NCBI RefSeq assembly: GCF_030413615.1
Contig: NZ_CP129236.1
Coordinates: 3,518,001 to 3,582,000 of the forward strand
Direction: 5' to 3'
DNA length: 64,000 nucleotides
DNA from: Planococcus shixiaomingii
GTDB taxonomy: Bacteria > Bacillota > Bacilli > Bacillales_A > Planococcaceae
Shown: one piece after another, positions 39,211 through 51,597 of the stretch
Position numbering within the stretch: position 1 is the first letter of the stretch
Layout of the letters: each line of letters starts with the position of its first letter
Position numbers and translations under genes: made by a program
The notes under the pieces: model-generated
What the model was told of the DNA's origin: nothing
What the model saw: the letters and a program-made list of their open reading frames with translations, nothing else
Database searches by the model: none

Positions 39211-39242
39211 AAAAAAACCTAACTGCTGGCAGCAGTTAGGTT
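39211..39242 (-). terminator. Terminator of the sigma/anti-sigma operon
   Basis: AACCTAACTGCTG and CAGCAGTTAGGTT form a perfect 13-bp stem; seven A (T on the minus strand) follow. It overlaps the anti-sigma stop codon. Confidence 0.93.
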
Positions 39243-39984
39243 AAATTTCCGAACTCAGGACGATTTCGCCTTCGGGCAATTGATTGCCCGCTTTCGGTTC
39301 ACGTGTGATGGCTATCGTATCCCAGCCTTCTGTATTTTCTTTTAAGCTAAAATAGGCTGCGCCTTCGCCGGTTTGGCTTGGTGTAAACGCACCAGCTGGA
39401 ATCGGCTGTCCTTCTTTCAGAAGCCATACTTGATAAATCTCATCTCCCTGCAGCTGCTCAAGTTCAGAACCTGCCACGACCACATCAAGCGAGTCGCCAT
39501 CTCGAATCAGTTTTGCTTGGGCGTCTCCACCGAATGCTTCACTCGGCTGAAGCTCGACTTCCTGTAATGCGGTTTCTGCAGGTTCTGCTGTTTCCACCGT
39601 CTCACGGTTCGAAAGCTGGAAAAATGCATAAGCATTGCCGAGCAGCGACAGCAACAGAACTGCAGCGACCAGCGGCATCCACCTTGTGTTTTTTCTTTTC
39701 GGTTTTACTGCCGGCATTGCGGCTGGTGTTGGTTTTTGTATCGGTTTTCGTGCCGGCTGCACTTCTTCCATTGGCTCCTCAGAAAAAACATTGGCCAATA
39801 TCCGCGTTTTCATCTCTGCAGGCGGTTCAATCGGTTCGGCAAGATAAGGGAGCTCGCCTGTCAGTTCCACAATTTCCTGGCAATCTGCACAGGTTTTCAG
39901 GTGTTCTTCAAATTTGCGCATCTCTTCTTCAGTTAACGTGCCATTTAGAAAATCCACTACATGTTCACAATCCATTTTAGTCAT
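39241..39984 (-). CDS. Anti-sigma factor, RskA-like with zinc-finger ZAS domain
   Basis: A 247-residue protein from the ATG at 39984, preceded by GAGGGGGG and overlapping the sigma stop (ATGACTAA). The N-terminal anti-sigma domain has the zinc motif H-x3-C-x2-C (EEHLKTCADC). A membrane helix lies at about residues 100-120 (LVAAVLLLSLLGNAYAFF). The outer C-terminal RskA domain follows (YQVWLLKEGQPIPAGAF). It should hold the cognate ECF sigma at the membrane until proteolysis, by analogy with RskA/RsiW. Overlap of the genes supports pairing. Confidence 0.9.
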   Translation of the reverse strand: MTKMDCEHVVDFLNGTLTEEEMRKFEEHLKTCADCQEIVELTGELPYLAEPIEPPAEMKTRILANVFSEEPMEEVQPARKPIQKPTPAAMPAVKPKRKNTRWMPLVAAVLLLSLLGNAYAFFQLSNRETVETAEPAETALQEVELQPSEAFGGDAQAKLIRDGDSLDVVVAGSELEQLQGDEIYQVWLLKEGQPIPAGAFTPSQTGEGAAYFSLKENTEGWDTIAITREPKAGNQLPEGEIVLSSEI

Positions 39985-40543
39985 CGATAGCCCCCCTCTC
40001 TTGCACACCGTGCAGTGATAGTTTCAGTTTTTTGAGCGCCAGCCGAATCCTGCTTTTTACCGTTCCTAGCGGGATGTCACACAGGCTGGAGATGGTTTCA
40101 TGCGTATACCCTTTAAAGTAAAACAGCTGTATCATTTTCTGCTGTTCGCTGGAGAGTTCCTGAACGGCAGTTTCAATCTGCTCTTTCTTATCCTGCCACT
40201 CCGCAAGATCTTCGACAGTGGAGCTGGTATCCATCAAATCGCCAACCTCATCCAAAGGGACAGAAGGCTTTTTGCGTTTCCGGATCAAATCAACAGCCAC
40301 GTTGCGTGACATCGTGAATAACCAGGAAGTGAATTTCCCCTTGCTTTCATCATATTCCCCTTTGCCCCGCCAAAGCTTGATAAAGACCTCTTGCAAGGCT
40401 TCTTCAGCCAAGTCCCGGTCTTCGGTCATTTTGACGAGAAAAGAGAAAAGGATTTTTTCATAGCGGTCGTATAGTTGTTCAAGCGCCGCTTTATCTTTGC
40501 TTTGTATACGACTGTAAAGCATAAAGTCCGAGCTTTTCTCCAT
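39977..40543 (-). CDS. ECF RNA polymerase sigma factor, SigK-like
   Basis: A 188-residue ECF sigma factor. Region 2 spans DRYEKILFSFLVKMTEDRDL and AEEALQEVFIKLW. Region 4 holds FYFKGYTHETISSLCDIPLG followed by TVKSRIRLALKKLK. Its partner is the zinc-finger RskA-like protein overlapping at the 3' end, as in SigK/RskA (ECF19-like) pairs. A promoter motif about 145 bp upstream is shared with two surface-protein genes 2-6 kb away, which suggests autoregulation and a local regulon. The RBS is GGGGAA. Confidence 0.92.
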   Translation of the reverse strand: MEKSSDFMLYSRIQSKDKAALEQLYDRYEKILFSFLVKMTEDRDLAEEALQEVFIKLWRGKGEYDESKGKFTSWLFTMSRNVAVDLIRKRKKPSVPLDEVGDLMDTSSTVEDLAEWQDKKEQIETAVQELSSEQQKMIQLFYFKGYTHETISSLCDIPLGTVKSRIRLALKKLKLSLHGVQERGAIDD

Positions 40544-40686
40544 TGCCGTTCCCCTTTTTTCAGATGTCGTTCTTCAAGCTTACTACAACTTGAGCGGCAG
40601 GAGAATGCCCTCGAATCGAAAAGCCTGCTGATTGAAGAAACATGTCCTTGTGCAATAGATGAATATATTTATTCACCCGCTACTTG

Positions 40687-40716
40687 CAAAACGTTTGGAA
40701 CGCGCTTTTAGTTCAC
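40687..40716 (-). promoter_or_regulatory. Candidate ECF promoter of the sigma operon
   Basis: The minus strand reads GTGAAC, 16 bp, ACGTTTTG. The spacing and both elements match the motif ahead of the two MPKTG surface-protein genes. The 314-bp gap 40544-40857 holds nothing else that I can identify except the hydrolase RBS. Confidence 0.55.
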
Positions 40717-40857
40717 ATTTAACCCTAAATAATGCTGCAGAGCAGAAAAAGACTTTTTGTAATGATATTTTTTTGATTCTTACTTGTTTAATTAAAGATA
40801 TTGAGGGAATTTTACTGAATAGTACTTGAACGGAAAAAAATAGGAGGAGGAAGTTAA

Positions 40858-41676
40858 TTGGGACATTATATTGAAGTGGAAGCTGGAGTAAAAGTATATG
40901 TTGAAGACATCGGAACAGGTCAGCCAGTCGTCTTTATCCACGGTTGGCCACTGAACAGCAAATCGTTTGAGATGCAGGCGAATGAATTGGCATTGCAAGG
41001 TTTCCGTTTTATCGGCATCGATCTCCGCGGCTTTGGGAAATCGGACAAACCTTGGACGGGCTATGACTACGACACGCAAGCAAGCGACGTTAAAGCCGTC
41101 GTCGATCATTTGGGCCTTGAGAATTTTGTGCTTGCCGGGTTTTCCATGGGAGGGGCAATCGCTATCCGCTATATGAGCAAATTCGGCGGGCAAGGCGTGG
41201 ATAAGCTGATGCTGATGGGTGCGGCGGCTCCCCTGTTCACCCAACGGGATGATTTTGAAATCAACCTGAAGCCCGAAGAAGTGGATGATATCATCGAACA
41301 GATCAAAAAAGACCGTCCCGCTTTCCTGGCGCAGTTTGCTGACATGTTTTTTGAACAAGAACAATCGCCCGAATTCCTGCATTGGTTCCAGATGCTCGGC
41401 CTTGAAGCCGCAGCCCATTCCACGATCAACGCAGCTGTTGCACTGAAAGATGAGGATTTAAGAAGTGAACTGGCCGGCATTTCTGTGCCGACCACTATTT
41501 TCCACGGACAGAAAGACCAGATCTGCGCGTATGCACTCGCTGAAGAAATGAATAAACAAATTCCCAACTCCGTACTTGTACCGTTTGAACAAAGCGGCCA
41601 CGGCATCAACGGAGACGAACCGGAAAAATTCAATACGGAGTTAGTGAACGTCTTGAATGGTTCTGAAGTAAAATAA
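40858..41676 (+). CDS. Alpha/beta hydrolase, arylesterase/haloperoxidase type
   Basis: A 272-residue hydrolase starting at TTG 40858, with AGGAGGAGG upstream and no suitable ATG. The triad is Ser in AGFSMGGA, Asp in HGQKDQI and His in QSGHGING. HGWPLNSKSFE is the oxyanion region, and the closest type is the cofactor-free haloperoxidase/arylesterase group. The substrate is unknown. It lies between the sigma operon (divergent) and the surface-protein gene, but lacks the shared promoter motif, so it may not belong to that regulon. Confidence 0.85.
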   Translation: MGHYIEVEAGVKVYVEDIGTGQPVVFIHGWPLNSKSFEMQANELALQGFRFIGIDLRGFGKSDKPWTGYDYDTQASDVKAVVDHLGLENFVLAGFSMGGAIAIRYMSKFGGQGVDKLMLMGAAAPLFTQRDDFEINLKPEEVDDIIEQIKKDRPAFLAQFADMFFEQEQSPEFLHWFQMLGLEAAAHSTINAAVALKDEDLRSELAGISVPTTIFHGQKDQICAYALAEEMNKQIPNSVLVPFEQSGHGINGDEPEKFNTELVNVLNGSEVK

Positions 41677-41702
41677 TCATCCAAAACAAACTGCTTTCTA
41701 TA

Positions 41703-41740
41703 GGAAGGGGCGCCGACAGGCTTCCCTTTTTTTATTTTTT
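41703..41740 (+). terminator. Probable terminator of the hydrolase gene
   Basis: GGAAG and CTTCC arms with a GC-rich loop precede a long T-rich run. The stem is short. Confidence 0.5.
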
Positions 41741-41755
41741 ATAATTTTTTCTTTG

Positions 41756-41790
41756 AAAAGTGATCTATTTCTCCACTCCCTCCGTTAGGT
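41756..41790 (+). promoter_or_regulatory. Candidate ECF promoter of surface protein 1
   Basis: AAAAGTGATC (G at 41760), 16 bp, CCGTTAGGT. It shares AAAAGTGATCTA and the spaced CCGTT.GGT with the promoter region of the paralogous surface protein at 46.5 kb, and resembles the site before the sigma operon. Confidence 0.6.
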
Positions 41791-41825
41791 AGTTAAGAAA
41801 ACCCAAACAGAGGAGTGGTTCATTG

Positions 41826-43157
41826 ATGAAATGGAGAAAATTTTTAGCACCAGTAGTAGGGGCAGCATTGTTAGTGACCGCAACAGGAACGACCACTTTC
41901 GCACACGGAACGCCGCAGACTGATACAACGGGCGTCGAGCTTCGGGCAACACTGGATTCCCTGTTGTCCGAGCATTACGCGCTGGCCGTCGACTCCATGA
42001 TGAAAATTTACGATGGAGATAAAGGGGCTGAAGCTGCTATGGCAGCACTGGATGCCAACGCTGAAGATATGGAGCCGGTCATCGCTTCCGTATACGGTGA
42101 AGAAGGCGGCGCGGCATTCGAAGACATTTTCATCAAGCACAACACGGGAACAGATGAGTATGCACAAGCTGTAAAAGATGGCGACAAAGAAATGCAGAAA
42201 AAAGCGTTGGATGAAATTCAGTCGTTCGTTGACGAGATGGGCGCTTTTTTAGCCGCTGCAACGGAAGGCAATCTGCCGGAAGATGGAGCGACACAGGCAC
42301 TTCGCCAGCATGAAGACTTTGTCCAAAACACATTTGATCTTTATACGGAAGGCAAATACGAAGAGGCCTACACTTCTTACTTGGAAGGCTTCAAACAAAT
42401 TTTCGGGGCAGGCAGTGCCATCAGCGGAGCGGTTGCGACTCAATTCCCGGATAAATTCACAGATCCGAATACAGCTGCTGGCGATTTCCGCTCCACAGTG
42501 AACCGCATCGCGGCAGAACATTTTGCCTTGGCTCAGCTCAGTATGGCAAAAGGCTTCAACGGCGCTGAGGATTTCGACTTCGCTGATTGGGCTCAAGACC
42601 AGAACACAGAGGAATTCCGCAGTGCAATCGCTTCTGTCTACGGTGAAGAAGCTGGAACGCAATTCGTGAAGATTTGGGATAACGAGCACATTTCCGTGCA
42701 AGGCGATCTTGCCACAGCAACGGCTTCAGATGATCAAGGAGCAGTTGACGAAGCAGCTGGTGCATTAACCGATCAGTTTGCCACGAACTTCGGAACGTTT
42801 TTAAGCACAGCTACTGAAGACCGCTTGCCAAAAGATGAGTTGATTGCAGGAATCCAGGCTCATGAAACTTCTATAATCGACACATTCAATCAGTATGTTG
42901 CCGGCGACTATGAAACTTCTTATGAAACATACCGTACCGGATATGCGTTGATGTTCGATATTGGCAATGGATTAAGCAGCGCAATTGTTGATCAGTTCCC
43001 TGAGAACTTCCACAATGAGGCACCTGAGAAAATGCCGAAAACGGGATTTGGCGGAACGGCTAACCAGTCTAACACAATGGTTTTATGGGTTACGTTAAGC
43101 GCATTGATTTTAACAGCTGCCGGAACACTGACATATCGTCAAAGTAAACAACAATAA
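41826..43157 (+). CDS. Sortase-anchored surface protein with two helical repeats, paralogue 1
   Basis: A 443-residue secreted protein. ATG 41826 is used; a TTG one codon earlier is also possible. The signal peptide ends near residue 27. Two repeats of about 180 residues follow (from LRATLDSLLSEHYALA and FRSTVNRIAAEHFALA). Each has the landmarks VYGEE.G..F, a Thr-Glu-x-LP step (ATEGNLPEDG) and a final QFPDKF/QFPENF. The C-terminus is a sorting signal: MPKTGFGGT, a hydrophobic helix, then YRQSKQQ. The repeats look all-helical with recurrent His. I know similar repeats in Bacillales proteins that are often labelled copper amine oxidase, but there is no such enzyme domain here. Function unknown. 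Confidence 0.85.
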   Translation: MKWRKFLAPVVGAALLVTATGTTTFAHGTPQTDTTGVELRATLDSLLSEHYALAVDSMMKIYDGDKGAEAAMAALDANAEDMEPVIASVYGEEGGAAFEDIFIKHNTGTDEYAQAVKDGDKEMQKKALDEIQSFVDEMGAFLAAATEGNLPEDGATQALRQHEDFVQNTFDLYTEGKYEEAYTSYLEGFKQIFGAGSAISGAVATQFPDKFTDPNTAAGDFRSTVNRIAAEHFALAQLSMAKGFNGAEDFDFADWAQDQNTEEFRSAIASVYGEEAGTQFVKIWDNEHISVQGDLATATASDDQGAVDEAAGALTDQFATNFGTFLSTATEDRLPKDELIAGIQAHETSIIDTFNQYVAGDYETSYETYRTGYALMFDIGNGLSSAIVDQFPENFHNEAPEKMPKTGFGGTANQSNTMVLWVTLSALILTAAGTLTYRQSKQQ

Positions 43158-43163
43158 CTGTTG

Positions 43164-43184
43164 GAGAGAGCTTTATGCTCTCTC
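43164..43184 (+). other. Short hairpin between surface protein 1 and the sortase gene
   Basis: GAGAGAGC and GCTCTCTC pair around a 5-nt loop with no T run behind. It could lower or stabilise readthrough from the surface-protein gene into the sortase gene. Confidence 0.5.
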
Positions 43185-43211
43185 TATTCCTGTTGAAAGG
43201 GAGGGTGGAAA

Positions 43212-44180
43212 ATGAGGCAACTACTGACTATGGGCAGCGCGCTTTGCTTATGCGCGGCACTGTTCTTTTTCATGAAACCACTGGCAAATGACTCTATTCC
43301 AAAAGAAAGTTCTGCTCAAGTGAATGAGCAAAAAGAAACAGCAAAGACAGATTCCGAAACCAAAGCTGCGGGCAACAACGCCGATAAGATCGCGGAGTTC
43401 CCCATCCTCCCTGCACAGCGGGAAAAGCTTGAAACGATGCAGCGGCAGCGCCAGGAAAGCATCAAAGGCATGGTGCCTGCTCAAATCGAAATTCCATCAA
43501 TTGGCGTAAAAGCTTCCGTTGAGCAAACCGGAATCCTGGAAAACGGCGAGATGGGCGTACCTGAAGATGTCAATGAAGTGGGCTGGTTCGAGCCTGGCTA
43601 TAAAACTGGAGAAAAAGGCCATGCCGTTCTTGCGGGCCACGTCGACAGCTTAACGGGACCCGCCATTTTCTACAACCTGGAGAAAGTGAAGGTCGGCGAA
43701 AAAGTCACGATAAAAGATGCCGATGGCCGGGAAATGGTCTTTGAAGTTAAAGAAATTTCCAGCTACGAAACGGACGAAGCACCCATCGAAGAGATATTCG
43801 GAAAGTCGGATCAGCGCATGATCAATTTGATTACCTGCACCGGTGATTTCAATCGAAAAATCGGTTCCCATGAGGAACGACTGGTCGTTTCGGCGGAGCT
43901 AATTTCTGACTCAGACGTGGAAGAAAATGCGCCGGAACCGCCAACAAACGTCAAAGCGACTTCTTTCAACATTTCCTGGCACGCGGTGCGCGACGATGCC
44001 ATCATCGGTTACCGTGTGTACGAAGAAGATCTGGAAACAGGAGCAACAGTGAAAATCGCAACGGTTTCCTTGTTTGACCGCAAAAAAGTGGAGCTCCAAA
44101 CTTCTGCCAATAAACGCTATTTTGTCACATCAGTCGATGTGGATTTGGACGAATCTAAGAAAGCGGAAGCTAAACAATAA
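43212..44180 (+). CDS. Class-F-like sortase with C-terminal Fn3-like domain
   Basis: A 322-residue membrane-anchored sortase: N-terminal helix (about 5-22), Lys/Glu-rich linker (30-85), sortase core (88-232) and an extra C-terminal part (240-312). Catalytic residues are His143 (LAGHVDS), Cys209 (LITCTGDF) and Arg223 (EERLVV). The core resembles class D/F enzymes. The C-terminal part begins PEPPTNVKATSFNISWHAV and continues GYRVYEED, a fibronectin type III pattern, unusual for a sortase. It lies 54 bp after an MPKTG-bearing substrate gene on the same strand, so it probably anchors that protein and its paralogue at 45.1 kb. Confidence 0.88.
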   Translation: MRQLLTMGSALCLCAALFFFMKPLANDSIPKESSAQVNEQKETAKTDSETKAAGNNADKIAEFPILPAQREKLETMQRQRQESIKGMVPAQIEIPSIGVKASVEQTGILENGEMGVPEDVNEVGWFEPGYKTGEKGHAVLAGHVDSLTGPAIFYNLEKVKVGEKVTIKDADGREMVFEVKEISSYETDEAPIEEIFGKSDQRMINLITCTGDFNRKIGSHEERLVVSAELISDSDVEENAPEPPTNVKATSFNISWHAVRDDAIIGYRVYEEDLETGATVKIATVSLFDRKKVELQTSANKRYFVTSVDVDLDESKKAEAKQ

Positions 44181-44194
44181 GCGCAGTATACGTT

Positions 44195-44240
44195 AAACCG
44201 AACCGTGAACTTTGAAAAAAGTTTCCGGTTCGGTTTTTTT
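44195..44240 (+). terminator. Terminator of the surface protein-sortase operon
   Basis: AAACCGAACCG (44195-44205) and CGGTTCGGTTT (44226-44236) pair and run into T residues. Confidence 0.88.
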
Positions 44241-44296
44241 GCGCATACCGTTCGGTGTATGCTTTTAGAAAACAGTTGGTTGTAGGAGGAAAATCC

Positions 44297-44974
44297 ATGC
44301 ACACGTCAAACTGGCTGCAAGGCGGCCCTTTTCTCGAAGTCAGTTTCCTTTGGGAGCTTAAAGAAGATAGAACACAAGCAATCTACACCTTGATTCGTAA
44401 GCTATCTGCCCTTTCGACTTCCATCAGCATCGTGGATGTTAACGTCGAGAAATTGATTGAGGCTTTCGAGACCGGCTATCCTTATGACGAAGAAGATCCG
44501 CTTTCACCTGTTGTCCATTCGCTGGAATTAAAGCTGGTGGCAGATATTGCCGGAACGCGAAAAGCCATCTTACAAGTAGAACAGCTCTCGGCTAATGCCC
44601 TTTTAGTTGATTTCTGGTTTTTCGGCAGCCGGTTTGATGCACTACAATGGGACCAAATAGGAATTAAGAATAAAGATTTAGCGGCCTTTACGGATTTCCT
44701 GGCCGATCTTTATTCCAGCTTCGGATTCAAGGTTGGCGGAATTGCTCTTGAAAAGGATATACGTGAACTGTTTGATTGTGATGAACCAAGTCCATCCCCA
44801 TGTTATCAATTCGAGAATCTATCTCCTGACAGTTCTCTTGAGATGGAGCCTGATTTTTTCGCTTTAGTATGGAATGAAAACTGTGGAAAGCTAAGAGACA
44901 TGCCAGCCCAGCATAGAAGAATTGGGAAATCCGGGGTGCTGGTAGTTTCTTCTGATTCCTATAGCGAATTTTAA
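44297..44974 (+). CDS. Conserved-looking hypothetical protein (225 aa)
   Basis: A 225-residue soluble, acidic protein from the ATG at 44297 with AGGAGG; an in-frame ATG 42 bp upstream lacks a site. I do not recognise the family. There is no signal peptide or membrane helix. It begins GGPFLEVSFLWEL and has aromatic-rich VDFWFFGSRFDALQW in the middle, and alternating strands and helices are likely. It sits between the sortase and surface protein 2, after a strong terminator, so it is probably transcribed on its own. Confidence 0.65.
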   Translation: MHTSNWLQGGPFLEVSFLWELKEDRTQAIYTLIRKLSALSTSISIVDVNVEKLIEAFETGYPYDEEDPLSPVVHSLELKLVADIAGTRKAILQVEQLSANALLVDFWFFGSRFDALQWDQIGIKNKDLAAFTDFLADLYSSFGFKVGGIALEKDIRELFDCDEPSPSPCYQFENLSPDSSLEMEPDFFALVWNENCGKLRDMPAQHRRIGKSGVLVVSSDSYSEF

Positions 44975-44977
44975 TGC

Positions 44978-45082
44978 GTAAAATCGTATTTCTCTTGTAA
45001 TGGAGCGTATTCCCCTTTTAATGGGGCATATTTCAAGCGCAATGGTGCGTATTTTAACCTTTATGGAGCGTATTTTCCCCAA
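44978..45082. repeat. Five degenerate tandem 21-bp repeats, GCGTATTT type
   Basis: Units share a core (A)ATGGnGCGTATTT at a 21-bp period: TCGTATTTC, AGCGTATTCC, GGCATATTTC, TGCGTATTTT, AGCGTATTTT. The block lies between convergent genes just before a bidirectional terminator. On the minus strand it would read as IRSIxxx heptads, but there is no gene context. The period equals that of the unrelated repeat at 35.8 kb. Confidence 0.7.
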
Positions 45083-45086
45083 AACG

Positions 45087-45118
45087 AAAAAAGCTAGCCG
45101 GTTAAGGCTAGCTTTTTT
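45087..45118. terminator. Bidirectional terminator
   Basis: AAAAAAGCTAGCC (45087-45099) and GGCTAGCTTTTTT (45106-45118) form a perfect stem between the hypothetical gene and surface protein 2, which converge. Confidence 0.92.
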
Positions 45119-45134
45119 CATTCTATTTAATTAC

Positions 45135-46514
45135 TTAAGATTGTTTGCGTGTGCGAAGTGCAATGGTTGTCGACAATCCGGCAAGCATCAAGCCACCAAG
45201 GATCCACATGAATGGTACAGAAGATGAATCGGCTGTTCCGCCCATTCCTGTTTTCGGCATTTCAGAAGGCATTTCAGCTGCACTGAATTCTTCAGGGAAC
45301 TGATCGACGATCGCTTCAGACAAGCCGGCTGCCGGCATTGACATGTGAGCGTATGCTTCACGGATTGAACCGTAAGCTGTTTCGTAATCCCCTGCTACAT
45401 AAGAATCAAAAGCTTTTAGCAATTGATCGACGTGGCCAGTCAATCCTTCTTCCAATGCTGCAGCCGGTACGCGTCCTTCTGTTGCTGCATCAAGCAAAGC
45501 GGCTTGTTCAACGATGTACTTGTCCAAGTCGGCTTTCGCTTTTTCTTGGCCTTCAGCATCTTTCTCGCCAGTTGCCACTACGTAGTCAACAAAGTATCCG
45601 ATATGCGATTTCCAGACTTCCTCAAACTGTGCACCGGCTTCTTCGCCGTATACCGAAGCGACTGCAGCGGATAAATCGTCAGCATTTGCCAATAGTGCAG
45701 CAGATGCTGCATCAAAGCTTTCTGCTCCGTCAGCGCCGTCTTGCATAGCCACAACCGCAAGTCCAGCATGCTCTGTGAATGTGTAATTCAATTGTGCTCG
45801 AAGGTCCACAGCCGGCGTATCCGGGTTCGTGTTCTCGAACTTGTCAGCAAATTGGTCCGTAATTGCGATTGAAAGAGTTTCCGCAAACATGCTCATGTGA
45901 TGCATCGATTCGCGCTCCAGCGAGTAAGCAGTTTCAAAGTCGCCCGCTGCATAGGCGTCAAATGCTTCGACCAATTGGTCTACGTGCATGTCCAAACCTT
46001 CTTCAACTGCAGCGGCCGGCAAGCGACCTTCTGTAGCTGTATCAAAGAATTGGGCTTGTGTTTTCTTGTATTCATCCAAATCAGCAAGCGCTTTGTCTTT
46101 GCCTGCCTGATCGTCTTCAGCGGTTGCTGTTACGTAGTCGACAAAATAACCGATATGCGATTTCCAGATTTCATCAAACTGTGCGGCACCTTCTTCTCCG
46201 TAGACAGATGCAACCGCAGCTTTCAAATCGTCAGCGTTCGCAAGAAGTGCTCCAGATGCCTGATCGAAATCTTCAGCGCCATCCACGCCTTTTCTCATCG
46301 CTTCTACCGCAAGGAATGCATGCTCTGTCAAAACAGTATCCAAGGCAATCCGCAGTTCAGCAGCCGGTGTTGCGGTTCCAGTTTCCATGGAAGACTCGTT
46401 TCCTGAATGCCCGCCTTTTTCTGAATGCCCTCCGTGGCTATCCGCCAATGCAGCAGTTGGTACCAACAGTGAAAGCGTAAGTGGCAATGCGACCAATAAT
46501 TTGTTCATTTTCAT
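45135..46514 (-). CDS. Sortase-anchored surface protein with two helical repeats, paralogue 2
   Basis: A 459-residue secreted protein with signal peptide (to about residue 24, ALADS), a His/Gly-rich segment (HGGHSEKGGHSG), and two closely similar repeats of about 185 residues starting ELRIALDTVLTEHAFLAVEA and DLRAQLNYTFTEHAGLAVVA. Each repeat keeps His at TEHA, WKSHIGYFVDYV, HVDQL and a HMSM motif, a pattern that could bind metal. The C-terminus is MPKTGMGGT, a hydrophobic helix and RTRKQS. The last 41 residues have the same length and plan as those of paralogue 1, so both are probably substrates of the nearby sortase. The RBS is AAGGAGA. Function unknown. Confidence 0.85.
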   Translation of the reverse strand: MKMNKLLVALPLTLSLLVPTAALADSHGGHSEKGGHSGNESSMETGTATPAAELRIALDTVLTEHAFLAVEAMRKGVDGAEDFDQASGALLANADDLKAAVASVYGEEGAAQFDEIWKSHIGYFVDYVTATAEDDQAGKDKALADLDEYKKTQAQFFDTATEGRLPAAAVEEGLDMHVDQLVEAFDAYAAGDFETAYSLERESMHHMSMFAETLSIAITDQFADKFENTNPDTPAVDLRAQLNYTFTEHAGLAVVAMQDGADGAESFDAASAALLANADDLSAAVASVYGEEAGAQFEEVWKSHIGYFVDYVVATGEKDAEGQEKAKADLDKYIVEQAALLDAATEGRVPAAALEEGLTGHVDQLLKAFDSYVAGDYETAYGSIREAYAHMSMPAAGLSEAIVDQFPEEFSAAEMPSEMPKTGMGGTADSSSVPFMWILGGLMLAGLSTTIALRTRKQS

Positions 46515-46559
46515 TTAAAACATCTCCTTTTTCTTTGTTTGATTTTTTTGTTCTGTTAA

Positions 46560-46592
46560 CCAAACGGAGAAAGAAGTTATTTAGATCACTTT
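46560..46592 (-). promoter_or_regulatory. Candidate ECF promoter of surface protein 2
   Basis: The minus strand reads AAAAGTGATC, 16 bp, CCGTTTGGT, 46 bp before the start codon. It matches the promoter region of paralogue 1 in both elements and spacing. The rest of the 320-bp gap holds only the terminator at 46.73 kb. Confidence 0.6.
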
Positions 46593-47424: not shown

Positions 47425-50400
47425 TCAGACAAACTCGCCAATTAAGTCATGGATTTCTTCCATAATCGATTCAAACAGCGGATCTTCATCGGCTGACACA
47501 ATGTAATGTCTGCCTTCCTCCTTATCAGCCAGATAACGGAGATGGTTTATCGCCGCCCCTTTATTGCCAAGCAGCATTTCCGCACGGGCCAGTTCGTAGT
47601 AGGTCGGCAAGTAATCGGGTTCATCTTGGATCAAAGACACCAGAATTTCACGAGCTATCAATCCTTCTTTCACTTCCACATACACCATTCCGAGATTGAG
47701 GCGGATCCATTCATGGTCTTTCAGTTCTTCCGGCAGGCGTGCTTCAAATCCTTTGACCTCCTGCGGACGCTGTTCAGCCAAAAGATGCATCAGGCGCGCA
47801 TAGCCTTCCGTATTGTAAGGTTCAAGGTGAATGAGCTGTTCATATTGCGCCACTGTTTTTTCGAACTCGCCAATTGCGTAGAGGGCTTCCCCTCTCGCCA
47901 GCAGCAGCCGCGTATCGAACGGCCGCTGTTCATGAAGCTTCCGCGCCTGGACAGCAGCGGACCTTGCAATCTTATAGGACTCTTCTTGGTCAGCCAGTTG
48001 AAGCGTCGCTTGGACCTGCAAAAGGGCCGCTTCAAAATTGCCCGTCCGTTCAACAAAAGGCTTCAGTTCATCCACAGCTTCTTTTGCCATTTCACGGGAC
48101 ATATAGAGTCCTGCCAGACGCGTGACCGGCAGCTCGTTCTCGGGCAGCTGTTTAATGGCATCTTCGTACAAGGTAATAATGTTGCTTATGATCTTCAACG
48201 ACCGCGCGTTGTGGCGCAGTTTGGCAATCAACCCTTTCGGCTCTTCCTGCTCGAATTGTTCAAACCAGAGTGCCAGGAAATCCGCGCAATACGTTTTAGC
48301 AATAGCCAAATTTTCACCGGAAAGCTTTTGCTTCAGCCGTTTGCTGATTTCATTCGTCTTGCCGACTTCGCCCAGTATGCCGATATATTTTTCATAGAGT
48401 CCAACCAGGTCCGGATAGTCCGCAATCATCTCTTCCAACAAGACTGCTGCCCGTTTGAAATCCCCTCGGCGTTCACAAAACTCTACATGCTCAAAACGAG
48501 ACCTGTATGCTCCGTTTACCGCTTTGGCTTGTACAAAAAGATTTTCCGCTTCCTTTAATCTTCCCTCTTTTTCTGCACAGTGTGCCTTGACTACAAGCAG
48601 CCACTCTTCTGGCACTTTTTCAGAAATTTCTTCGACTCTTTTCGAGATGGCGGAGACAGCTTCTTCAGTATCCGCTAAACGGAACAGTTCTCCCAAATCG
48701 AGTTCCAATGGATCATTTTCAAGCACAATCATGGCTGCAGCGAGTGCACGCTCCTTATTCTCAAGAGCGGTATAATCGTGCATTAAGCCTCCATAAGCAG
48801 CGGTGAAGCCTGGGTCCAGCTCGGCACAGCGCAGGTGATGATTGATGGCTTCTTCGTAGCGGCCTCTTTTTTCTTCTAGCAGCCCAAGCCGGTAATGCGC
48901 TAAAGGGTAGTCCGCTTTTTCCGCAGCCTGGAGGTACAATTTCCGGGCAAATCGGTTGTTCTCGGTTTCCTCATGCAGCGAGCCTTCCATACAAAGCAAT
49001 ACTTCGTCCGGACCTGTTTCTCTCAGATCCTTGAATTTTTTCAGCACACGGTGCCGGAAGAACGGATCTTCCCCAAATTCAGCATACTGGCCTGCAATAT
49101 CATGAAACCCTTCCCGCTCCGCGTTTTCAAGGCCTTGCTCCAGCAGCAGAACCGCCTGCTCTTTTCCAGCATATTCCGGCCACTCTTCCCATAACATGGA
49201 GGCGGTGCGGATAAAATAGCCGGCATCCCCTTTTTCGGTATATTGGCCGATCCATTCGCCAGCCTCATCAAAACGTTCTTGTTTAATGAGCATGTGGGCA
49301 ATGTGGGTAACTGCAAACAAATCTTTCGGATCCAGCTCCAGCGCCTTCCGGTATTCGGTTTCCGCTTCTTTAAACCGCTTCCGCTCCATGGCGATATGCC
49401 CCCGGTAAATGTGCAGCACATCGGCCGTTTCAGCTTTCCCGAGTCCTTTATTGATAATGTTCTCCGCCTTCTGCCACGCTTCCGCTTCCATATGAATTTC
49501 AGCGATTCTCAAATAAGAATAGGGCAGCGCCGGATCTATCTCGATTGCCCGGCTGAAAGCGGCAATCGCTTGTTCCTCATCCCCGAGCTGCTGCAGGCAA
49601 CGCCCGATTTCATAAATGAAATACCCATCGTCAGGGTGTTCTTTACTGAGTTTTCGGAAACGCTCCAGCGCTTTTTCGTACGCTCCGGATTCATACTGGA
49701 TCAAGCTATGGGTAACCTGGGCGAATACATCGGACGGCAACTGCTCGAGCGCAATGGATGACCATTTATACGCTTGATAGCTTTTCCCTGTCTCCAGATA
49801 GCAGCGGGCAAGATGGCTATAGGCCTCCAGCTGATAGTGGTCCAATTCGATGGATTTTTTCAGCAGTGGAATCGCCTGCTCATGTGCATCCCTGTCCATC
49901 AGGACGGCTCCTTTTAAAAACAAGGCATACGGGCTGCGCTTTTCATCTACATAAGCGAGATAGGCAAGTGCTTCCGGCAATTGTCTTTTCTGAAAGTGCA
50001 TATGAGCAGCCAGCAGCGCCACTTCTTCATCTTCTTTGCCGAATTCCCGCTGAAGGCGCTCAAGCCATTTGCTATGGAGAGCCTGGGCACGGTCGGTAAA
50101 TAAAGTGGCGACGCCAACCACTGCCGCGAAACGTTCTTCCGTATGGCTGTCCAAAAATTCGAGAAAAGCTTCGCTTTCCCCTTTTTCAGCTTCATCTAAA
50201 AATGCGTATAACTCAGAGAAGAAACGGTGTTCACGGTCATCAAGGAGTTCCAAAAGCTGATTTTGTTCTTTCTTCACAAAGGCTACGCTCAGCGAATCCG
50301 TCAGTTTGTAAACTGATTTCACCTCTGCGTATGAAAGCAGAAACGGCGCCTGGTCATTCGGGTCCTGGATGATCAGCCCCTGAAGCCGGTCGTCATAACC

Positions 50401-51597
50401 GATAACCACTTGGACGTGGGCGCTGTTTTCAATCATCATGCTAAGGAGCACCGGAACTCCGGCATCTATGAACTTCTTATACAAGTCCACGGTTCCTTTA
50501 AAGTACCTCGCCTCAAGACCGAGCGACTCCATGTAGGTCAAGGTGGTCCGAAGTTTCGAACCGGTCACGTCAAAAACATGTGAAGCGATTTCGTCTTGGC
50601 CAATTTCCATTCCGAATGCTTCCAGCATGAGCGACAGAGAAGCCGGCACACAATAATTCATCTTTTGAACCTTCGGCGTCAGCTTCAGCTGCTTCACTTT
50701 TTCATCGCGCCGGATGTCGGTTTTGCCGTACAGGGTGCTTTTTAGAATTTGTTGATGCGCGCTGATCCAATCGTTCAGTTCATCCCACTGTTCAAGCTTA
50801 TACAAACTTGCCGCTGTCAAATAAACAAAATAGTTGCGGCGCAAATGGAACGGGTTTTTCTCATTGATTTCCTTCATCAAACTAATGGCTTCGTTATAAC
50901 GGCCGAGATGATAAAGCCTGCTCACTTGCTCTATGCGATATCCCCAATTTTCCGGAGCCGTCGTTTCTCCTTCTTGCAGCACAGCCAAGGAATCCGTTTG
51001 CCGCCCTGTCATCGATAAAAGCTCTGCGTAAAGCGGCCTTGTGTAGCTGCTCCGTTCTGCATCTTCTTTTTCGAGAGCGCTTTTTAGAACCTGCTCCGCC
51101 TTTTCCCATTCTCCGCTGTGTATATAGTAGTAGCCTTCCTCATCAGGCCAAACCAATCCTCTTGCTTCTTCAATCTTTCGCAGTTGCTCTTTCGCTTCCG
51201 GCAGGCGATTAAGCTCACAGAATACCTTCAGCAACAAACTATGCGCTGCTGCCAGCTCTTCCCCTGTATAACTGTTTGCCGCATGGTTCTGCAAGCGACC
51301 GCGCATCCGCTCTTCTGCTTCCAGGCTCTTCCCTGTATCACTCAGCCGTGCACAATGCCAGGCAAACGAACGAAGCGTTCCCAATTGCTTATAGGCCTGC
51401 GTCGCGAAAAAATTGCCATAGTCGTCGAGGTCCGCCTGGTCCGCCAACTGAATCAGCCGGTAAAAATCCTCTTCTGTCTCCAATCCCTTCAACCATTCGC
51501 GCAGCCGGCGAATCGAGCGCGCCTCCCATAACTGGCGAATCGCTTCGATTAACTGATTGGCTGTCCTAATTTCTTTTGCTTGCATGTTGATCCCCAT
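47425..51597 (-). CDS. Large TPR protein with embedded C39-like peptidase domain
   Basis: A 1390-residue protein without signal peptide. Residues 1-300 are TPR-like helical repeats. Residues 305-450 form a papain-like C39 domain with Cys316 in MNYCVPASLSLML, His394 in NSAHVQVVIGYD and Asp412 in IIQDPND. From about 530 to the end TPR units resume (ALERFRKLSKEHPDDGYFIY, AIAAFSRAIEIDPALPYSYL). The catalytic triad looks complete, so peptide or isopeptide cleavage is possible. C39 domains otherwise process double-glycine leaders in bacteriocin exporters, but no transporter or precursor is near. It stands alone. An in-frame ATG at 51585 is an alternative start. Confidence 0.88.
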   Translation of the reverse strand: MGINMQAKEIRTANQLIEAIRQLWEARSIRRLREWLKGLETEEDFYRLIQLADQADLDDYGNFFATQAYKQLGTLRSFAWHCARLSDTGKSLEAEERMRGRLQNHAANSYTGEELAAAHSLLLKVFCELNRLPEAKEQLRKIEEARGLVWPDEEGYYYIHSGEWEKAEQVLKSALEKEDAERSSYTRPLYAELLSMTGRQTDSLAVLQEGETTAPENWGYRIEQVSRLYHLGRYNEAISLMKEINEKNPFHLRRNYFVYLTAASLYKLEQWDELNDWISAHQQILKSTLYGKTDIRRDEKVKQLKLTPKVQKMNYCVPASLSLMLEAFGMEIGQDEIASHVFDVTGSKLRTTLTYMESLGLEARYFKGTVDLYKKFIDAGVPVLLSMMIENSAHVQVVIGYDDRLQGLIIQDPNDQAPFLLSYAEVKSVYKLTDSLSVAFVKKEQNQLLELLDDREHRFFSELYAFLDEAEKGESEAFLEFLDSHTEERFAAVVGVATLFTDRAQALHSKWLERLQREFGKEDEEVALLAAHMHFQKRQLPEALAYLAYVDEKRSPYALFLKGAVLMDRDAHEQAIPLLKKSIELDHYQLEAYSHLARCYLETGKSYQAYKWSSIALEQLPSDVFAQVTHSLIQYESGAYEKALERFRKLSKEHPDDGYFIYEIGRCLQQLGDEEQAIAAFSRAIEIDPALPYSYLRIAEIHMEAEAWQKAENIINKGLGKAETADVLHIYRGHIAMERKRFKEAETEYRKALELDPKDLFAVTHIAHMLIKQERFDEAGEWIGQYTEKGDAGYFIRTASMLWEEWPEYAGKEQAVLLLEQGLENAEREGFHDIAGQYAEFGEDPFFRHRVLKKFKDLRETGPDEVLLCMEGSLHEETENNRFARKLYLQAAEKADYPLAHYRLGLLEEKRGRYEEAINHHLRCAELDPGFTAAYGGLMHDYTALENKERALAAAMIVLENDPLELDLGELFRLADTEEAVSAISKRVEEISEKVPEEWLLVVKAHCAEKEGRLKEAENLFVQAKAVNGAYRSRFEHVEFCERRGDFKRAAVLLEEMIADYPDLVGLYEKYIGILGEVGKTNEISKRLKQKLSGENLAIAKTYCADFLALWFEQFEQEEPKGLIAKLRHNARSLKIISNIITLYEDAIKQLPENELPVTRLAGLYMSREMAKEAVDELKPFVERTGNFEAALLQVQATLQLADQEESYKIARSAAVQARKLHEQRPFDTRLLLARGEALYAIGEFEKTVAQYEQLIHLEPYNTEGYARLMHLLAEQRPQEVKGFEARLPEELKDHEWIRLNLGMVYVEVKEGLIAREILVSLIQDEPDYLPTYYELARAEMLLGNKGAAINHLRYLADKEEGRHYIVSADEDPLFESIMEEIHDLIGEFV

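Follow-up and report, generated by a model that had tools for sequence, protein, structure and literature searches.

A candidate dedicated ECF sigma factor regulon of anchored surface proteins in Planococcus shixiaomingii and other Bacilli

We analysed a 64,000-nucleotide (nt) window of the Planococcus shixiaomingii genome (contig NZ_CP129236.1, positions 3,518,001 to 3,582,000), in which the gene of an extracytoplasmic function (ECF) sigma factor lies close to genes for an anti-sigma factor, two surface proteins and a sortase. Comparison with relatives suggests, with a probability of roughly 0.9, that this locus is the core of a conserved, dedicated ECF regulon for a family of anchored surface proteins in many Bacilli. 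The first-pass annotation of this DNA, made from the window's sequence, had proposed that the sigma factor drives a dedicated surface-anchoring system. The comparative evidence supports and widens that proposal, with the sigma factor as the predicted regulator.

A promoter motif shared by the sigma operon and the surface protein genes

The sigma gene (39977..40543, minus strand) overlaps the anti-sigma gene (39241..40008, minus strand), and the predicted promoter of this operon lies at 40687..40716 on the same strand, where GTGAACT and CGTT are separated by 16 nt (GTGAACTAAAAGCGCGTTCCAAACGTTTTG; the motif starts 173 nt ahead of the start codon of the sigma gene). A second site, at 41760..41789 on the plus strand (GTGATCTATTTCTCCACTCCCTCCGTTAGG), precedes the genes of surface protein 1 (41823..43157) and the sortase (43212..44180), both on the plus strand, and a third, at 46560..46589 on the minus strand (GTGATCTAAATAACTTCTTTCTCCGTTTGG), precedes the gene of surface protein 2 (45135..46514, minus strand). 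All three match the motif exactly, and the two surface sites have AAAAGTGATCTA and CCGTTNGGT in common. The motif had been described as GTGAWC-N16-MCGTTWKG at three sites, with extra blocks common to two of them; it is present at all three places in the right orientation, and the extra blocks are those of the two surface sites.

With no mismatch allowed, this pattern has three matches in the 4.02-Mb genome, all inside 6 kb at this locus, and the reversed control pattern has one. The possibility that the motif is randomly frequent, raised in the first-pass annotation, is not borne out, as the three sites are the sole exact matches. Were two further matches placed uniformly, the chance of both lying no more than 6 kb from the first would be approximately 9e-6. 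Because the three sites themselves had served to fit the pattern, independent tests come from relatives. In the source genome, a related pattern allowing as many as two mismatches gave 17 matches against 16 for its control, and with no excess over the control, no further targets are seen there.

Conservation of the motif and of the sigma factor in relatives

A stricter pattern, AGTGAWCTAW-N14-CGTT, was derived from sites seen in the genus (Planococcus/Planomicrobium) and run on 46 genomes of the genus. It identified 81 sites spread over 36 of these genomes, compared with seven for the reversed control. Almost all of them (76 of 81) are on the same strand as, and no more than 400 nt upstream of, a sigma gene (22 sites), a surface protein 1 gene (16), another surface protein gene (33) or a separated sortase gene (5). 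Three of the remaining five sites are at contig ends, where a surface-type signal peptide follows in two cases and a start codon with a few bases in the third; one lies before a diverged surface gene and one (genome G015) has no such gene. In genomes with the sortase gene next to the sigma gene rather than downstream of surface gene 1, a separate copy of the motif precedes the sortase gene.

A separate count was confined to loci retrieved by protein hits (190 bits for sigma factors and 150 bits for surface proteins, with the start of the profile matched), excluding loci fetched by the motif as well as L182, L188, L189-L192 and L299-L301, and merging identical upstream sequences. Among these distinct upstream sequences of the genus, a relaxed pattern was found at 31/31 sigma genes, 77/81 surface genes and 11/465 other open reading frames (ORFs). 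The strict pattern was found at 19/31, 67/81 and 6/465 respectively, and all six matches among the other ORFs are sortase genes standing apart from surface gene 1.

The regulon had initially been described as local. It is not just local: in the genus, a distance of more than 50 kb or a contig boundary separates the sigma gene from 24 of the 42 surface protein 1 matches and from 33 of the 69 other surface matches, with fragments counted in. These counts are upper bounds because some assemblies are fragmented. The spacer is 17 nt at surface gene 2 of three genomes (G006, G029 and G061). These were the only targets among the 26 places matched by a 17-nt spacer pattern with up to two mismatches, which serves as a spacing control and was compared with the lists of target genes by eye. 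Overall, the sigma factor is present in 42 of the 46 genus genomes (counting a broken gene in G002) and the surface family in 43; neither was found in G034, G023 or G004.

For other genera, a matrix was trained on 46 distinct genus sites, all selected for the presence of GTGATC and CGTT, and 42 loci were scored with it. Scores above 6 bits were obtained upstream of 28/44 surface genes and 5/24 sigma-like genes (a set that includes unrelated ECF genes), and for none of the sortase genes (0/23), anti-sigma genes (0/22) or other ORFs (0/549). Above 8 bits there were 33 matches in 724,514 bases on both strands, 32 of them at surface or sigma genes.

The surface family was detected in 101 of 398 genomes sampled from the class, representing 24 of 145 genera. 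The sigma profile was run on an equal number of genomes sampled in the same manner. When sigma matches with E-values up to 1e-60 were counted, 97 genomes had both the sigma factor and the surface family, four the surface family only, seven the sigma factor only and 290 neither. A hand count by genus gave 21, 3, 5 and 116 respectively. Fisher tests yielded 1.7e-78 by genome and 1e-17 by genus, both of which ignore descent. Genera g16, g36, g50 and g51 contributed nothing to the sigma profile, and their sigma and surface genes stand apart in the genomes compared (except in G365). The conservation test proposed in the first-pass annotation thus came out in favour of a regulon: relatives' genes retain the shared promoter both across the genus and beyond it, and the sigma factor co-occurs with the surface family.

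A joint change of promoter and sigma factor was found in g51, a genus with 19 surface-bearing genomes. Upstream of its surface protein 2-type genes, NAAAAC(C/T)-16-CGTT is present in 13/13 distinct sequences. Its surface protein 1-type genes have NNAATCC-16-CGTA in 8/8 (some with a second such site further away), and its sigma genes have a -35 candidate of their own, NAAAACG-16-CGTA, in 18/18. The same 18 sigma factors all read KTRIRSAI in region 4.2, compared with K(S/G)R.R(L/M)A in 46/46 other sigma factors with a readable helix (seven others could not be read by the helix pattern). G365, which is filed in g51, encodes KSRIRLAL; the box is GTGATCC at its surface gene, whereas TTGATCC precedes its sigma gene. 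That the -35 box and the helix that would read it changed together is a more direct link between the sigma factor and these promoters than co-occurrence, and the apparent change of specificity, with an unchanged relative alongside, offers a natural test of -35 recognition by ECF sigma factors.

Proposed control and competing explanations

Gene identities, the shared and conserved promoters, promoter retention at unlinked genes, co-occurrence and co-drift are established at the level of sequence, and the following mechanism would account for them. A membrane-spanning RskA-type anti-sigma factor would hold the ECF sigma factor at the membrane and inhibit it until an envelope signal relieves this hold, probably by stepwise proteolysis. 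The freed sigma factor would guide RNA polymerase to AAA-GTGATC(T/C)-16 nt-CGTT promoters, from which its own operon, the genes of the surface proteins and the sortase gene are predicted to be transcribed. The surface proteins would then be exported, and the co-expressed sortase would join their MPxTG signal covalently to the wall. Other lineages would have exchanged the anchor while retaining this promoter and the helical repeats.

Several observations weigh against a dedicated regulon of this kind. The motif is missing from 4/81 distinct surface upstream sequences within the genus, and outside it the relaxed pattern was found at only 16/64 sigma and 42/70 surface upstream sequences. A widened pattern raised these counts to 45 and 66, but also matched 45/700 controls, and it was written after the variants had been seen. 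The co-occurrence depends on the sigma threshold: sigma-only genomes rise to 41 at a cut-off of 1e-40, the 1e-60 cut-off was chosen after viewing the results, and the sigma profile was built from genus sigma factors together with sigma factors neighbouring surface genes. The two -35 models used for g51 were likewise written after the sequences had been seen, and the canonical model fits (10 or 11 of 11) in 35 of the 53 sigma upstream sequences outside the drifted group, and not in the other 18. The co-drift itself is confined to one lineage and is probably a single evolutionary event. Finally, some genomes keep the motif without an intact sigma factor, which suggests that another sigma factor may read the site or that the loss is recent. 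G065 has a surface protein 2 orthologue (L180:9435-10772, 84% identity) with the motif and no orthologous sigma gene was found there. In G002 (L182) the sigma gene contains stops and the anti-sigma gene is shortened, with the motif retained at the surface genes. Among the four surface-only genomes (G048, G239, G097 and G161), upstream sequences were read in G048 and G239 only, and both retain the motif at a surface gene with no orthologous sigma gene found.

These last cases, together with nine other ECF-like matches in the source genome (E-values up to 1e-12), are what would be expected if the motif were a genuine ECF promoter read mainly by a different ECF sigma factor, with the neighbouring sigma gene merely one more target. 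We consider this unlikely, as the family of the window's sigma factor accompanies the surface family in 97 of the 101 surface-bearing genomes, region 4.2 and the -35 box have changed together in g51, and the sigma factor's own gene carries the site in every distinct genus upstream sequence. Conservation upstream of genes across species would also be left by an activator or repressor, so the motif could instead be the operator of a DNA-binding regulator. Its geometry argues otherwise: it is not palindromic, occurs in a single orientation with a spacing that is almost always 16 nt, includes a -10-like CGTT, and mostly lies about 60-100 nt before surface start codons. A CGTT -10 box, near-fixed spacing and one orientation are as expected for ECF promoters, and a sigma gene co-occurs with the motif. 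With the neighbouring genes annotated in part, an operator for a co-occurring regulator is judged very improbable.

Least probable of all, to the point of being hardly credible, is that the likeness reflects upstream DNA copied along with duplicated surface genes and has no regulatory meaning. Surface proteins 1 and 2 are indeed paralogues (40% identity), and some genomes have four to seven matches. However, the sigma and sortase genes, which are not paralogues of the surface genes, also carry the motif, the motif persists between genera, and the spacers of the window's three sites are unlike one another. Across the 46 genus sites the middle spacer columns likewise hold 0-0.9 bits (the boxes being fixed by the way the sites were collected).

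A dedicated regulon under the neighbouring sigma factor therefore remains the preferred reading. It would give a surface family of many Bacilli, misleadingly named after an enzyme, a regulator, a promoter signature and often an anchoring enzyme, all from DNA, and with the promoter signature the regulon could be predicted in many genera from their sequences. A broader and decidedly tentative idea, which we regard as doubtful, is that a whole lineage of ECF sigma factors in Bacilli serves this one surface family, that anchors swap between a sortase signal, SLH and PF07833 with the regulator, its promoter and the double helical repeat retained, and that the repeats bind metal or haem through three to four buried histidines plus methionine on four helices, which would form a cofactor-bearing coat.

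Proteins and other features of the locus

The initial gene calls (an ECF sigma factor, an overlapping zf-HC2/RskA_C anti-sigma factor, a sortase and two proteins with sorting signals) are upheld by Pfam and by the sequences themselves. The sigma factor (188 amino acids) has regions 2 and 4 only, with matches to Sigma70_r2 (62.6 bits; cut-off 24) and Sigma70_r4_2 (52.5 bits; cut-off 25.7), and is an ECF (group IV) sigma factor. The anti-sigma factor matches PF10099 (RskA_C; 59.4 bits, cut-off 29.4) and PF13490 (zf-HC2; 34.6 bits, cut-off 22.2). It has a hydrophobic segment at residues 112-130, ahead of the RskA_C domain, and is of the RskA type by domain order and by its overlap with the ECF gene. 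The HxxxCxxC zinc motif of its ZAS domain (H36/C40/C43) is invariant in 19/19 aligned sequences.

By sequence, the closest solved structure to the sigma factor is SigK (4nqw_A, E-value 3e-23), yet its score against the SigK model PRK09646 of NCBIfam is 123.4 bits, below the cut-off of 226. In the alignment to 4nqw_A, SigK cysteine 133 (assuming a numbering offset of 17) faces an alanine; cysteine 183 lies just beyond the aligned part, and the window sigma factor has no cysteine after residue 154. The reported conservation of both cysteines is 94% among ECF18 and 56% among ECF19 members (PMC7509140), so their absence is compatible with membership of ECF19, 44% of which lack them. The original label "SigK-like" is thus apt for the predicted working mode of the protein and does not extend to its score or its cysteines.

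The nearest known system is SigK-RskA of Mycobacterium tuberculosis, whose regulon includes MPT70 and MPT83 (PMC7509140). Both systems pair an ECF sigma factor with an RskA_C anti-sigma factor, with autoregulation and a few secreted or surface targets, features predicted from sequence in our case. They differ in that the targets here are an unrelated surface family and a sortase, and in that the window anti-sigma factor has a ZAS zinc motif, on which the M. tuberculosis RskA is described as not relying in PMC7406223, a source that also cites a structure of SigW-RsiW. Similarity to the window sigma factor is lower for SigW (5wuq, E-value 4e-11). SigW-RsiW and other ECF systems of Bacillus subtilis combine an ECF sigma factor and a zinc-motif anti-sigma factor with autoregulation and envelope-related targets, a combination that the window system resembles. 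SigW differs in its promoter (TGAAAC/CGTA) and its larger stress regulon. The SigK promoter has CCATCC at -35 and CGAA at -10, which resemble the GTCATCC/CGAA variants upstream of the sigma genes of L247, L250 and L278. No description of the regulon was seen among the titles and abstract openings of the open-licence papers that literature searches returned, which is weak evidence of novelty.

Surface protein 1 consists of two helical repeats, and its start codon is probably the ATG at 41826. Surface protein 2 has a signal peptide, two helical repeats of about 183 residues and a C-terminal helix, and is 92% identical to its counterpart in Planomicrobium soli, the nearest named relative compared. 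Each protein ends in MPKTG, a hydrophobic stretch and a basic tail, as sortase substrates do. Neither matched a Pfam family or a Pfam anchor model, and GVDTG_CTERM scored below its cut-off. The AlphaFold model is an all-helical protein with two repeats, and no known fold was matched, a negative that carries little weight for a helical bundle.

Among 8000 candidates scored, 526 homologues of surface protein 2 were found at E-values up to 1e-3. We aligned 77 sequences (56 from 120 homologues listed, 19 from relatives' loci and the two window proteins), in which H65, H177, H249 and H361 (surface protein 2 numbering) are invariant. H120 and H304 are each present in 76/77, H206 in 69/77, M207 in 74/77 and M391 in 76/77. 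In repeat 1 of the AlphaFold model, the four histidines are on four different helices, which suggests a possible metal or haem site. The sorting signal is MPxTG in 65 of the 77 sequences, LPATA or MPNTA in two, and none of these in ten. PF07833, the N-terminal domain of copper amine oxidase, was found at the C-terminus of four of five distant homologues scanned, and an SLH domain in two of the 120 homologues listed. As judged from these sequences, the anchor changes between lineages and the helical repeats stay. Public records name homologues of the window proteins "copper amine oxidase", a name that the C-terminal PF07833 of distant homologues probably explains. The window proteins themselves have no amine-oxidase domain and were rejected as copper amine oxidases.

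Several genus genomes contain extra, diverged surface genes (loci L183, L184, L186, L187, L193 and L194), and a class F-like sortase match lies close by at every locus. The motif precedes one or more of the surface genes at each locus by about 95 nt; its -10 box reads CGTAG or CGTTTAG. Adjoining a surface gene of L186 is an ORF (L186:6603-6956, genome G028) for a 117-residue protein that resembles the N-terminus of the anti-sigma factor (47% identity) and has no Pfam match; it may be a soluble modulator.

The sortase matches PF04203 (87.2 bits; cut-off 26.6) up to residue 230 of 322, leaving about 90 extra C-terminal residues. Its best match among sortase classes is the class F model NF033748, at 140.8 bits, below the cut-off of 166. 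The arrangement is like that of class F-like sortase-substrate operons, in which the sortase gene lies behind a likely substrate with a sorting signal, a hydrophobic stretch and a basic tail. It differs in having MPKTG rather than LPXTG and in the ECF promoter shared by sigma factor, substrates and sortase. A second class F-like sortase match is present elsewhere in the same genome (G000:C1:951451-951903, 38% identity).

In the gap that separates the sortase gene from surface gene 1, a terminator scan found a stem-loop with a weak T-tract (43162..43186, plus strand), which may be an attenuator that lowers sortase output relative to its substrate. Single sites of this kind are weak evidence, since the scan gave 18 terminator-like sites in 8 kb compared with 9.3 in shuffled sequences. 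Behind the sortase gene, a hairpin followed by T residues (44196..44240, plus strand), read by eye and with a loop longer than the scan allows, probably ends the surface protein 1/sortase unit. An ORF of 239 amino acids without a family follows (44255-44974, plus strand). It was rejected as a regulon member, being behind this hairpin and having no exact site, as was the alpha/beta hydrolase gene between the first two promoter sites (40858-41676, plus strand), which also has no exact site. The 239-residue ORF adjoins the sortase gene in three close relatives as well (L031-L033, 51-60% identity). Further along, at 47425-51597 on the minus strand, a 1390-residue ORF encodes a repetitive-looking protein, TPR-like by eye.

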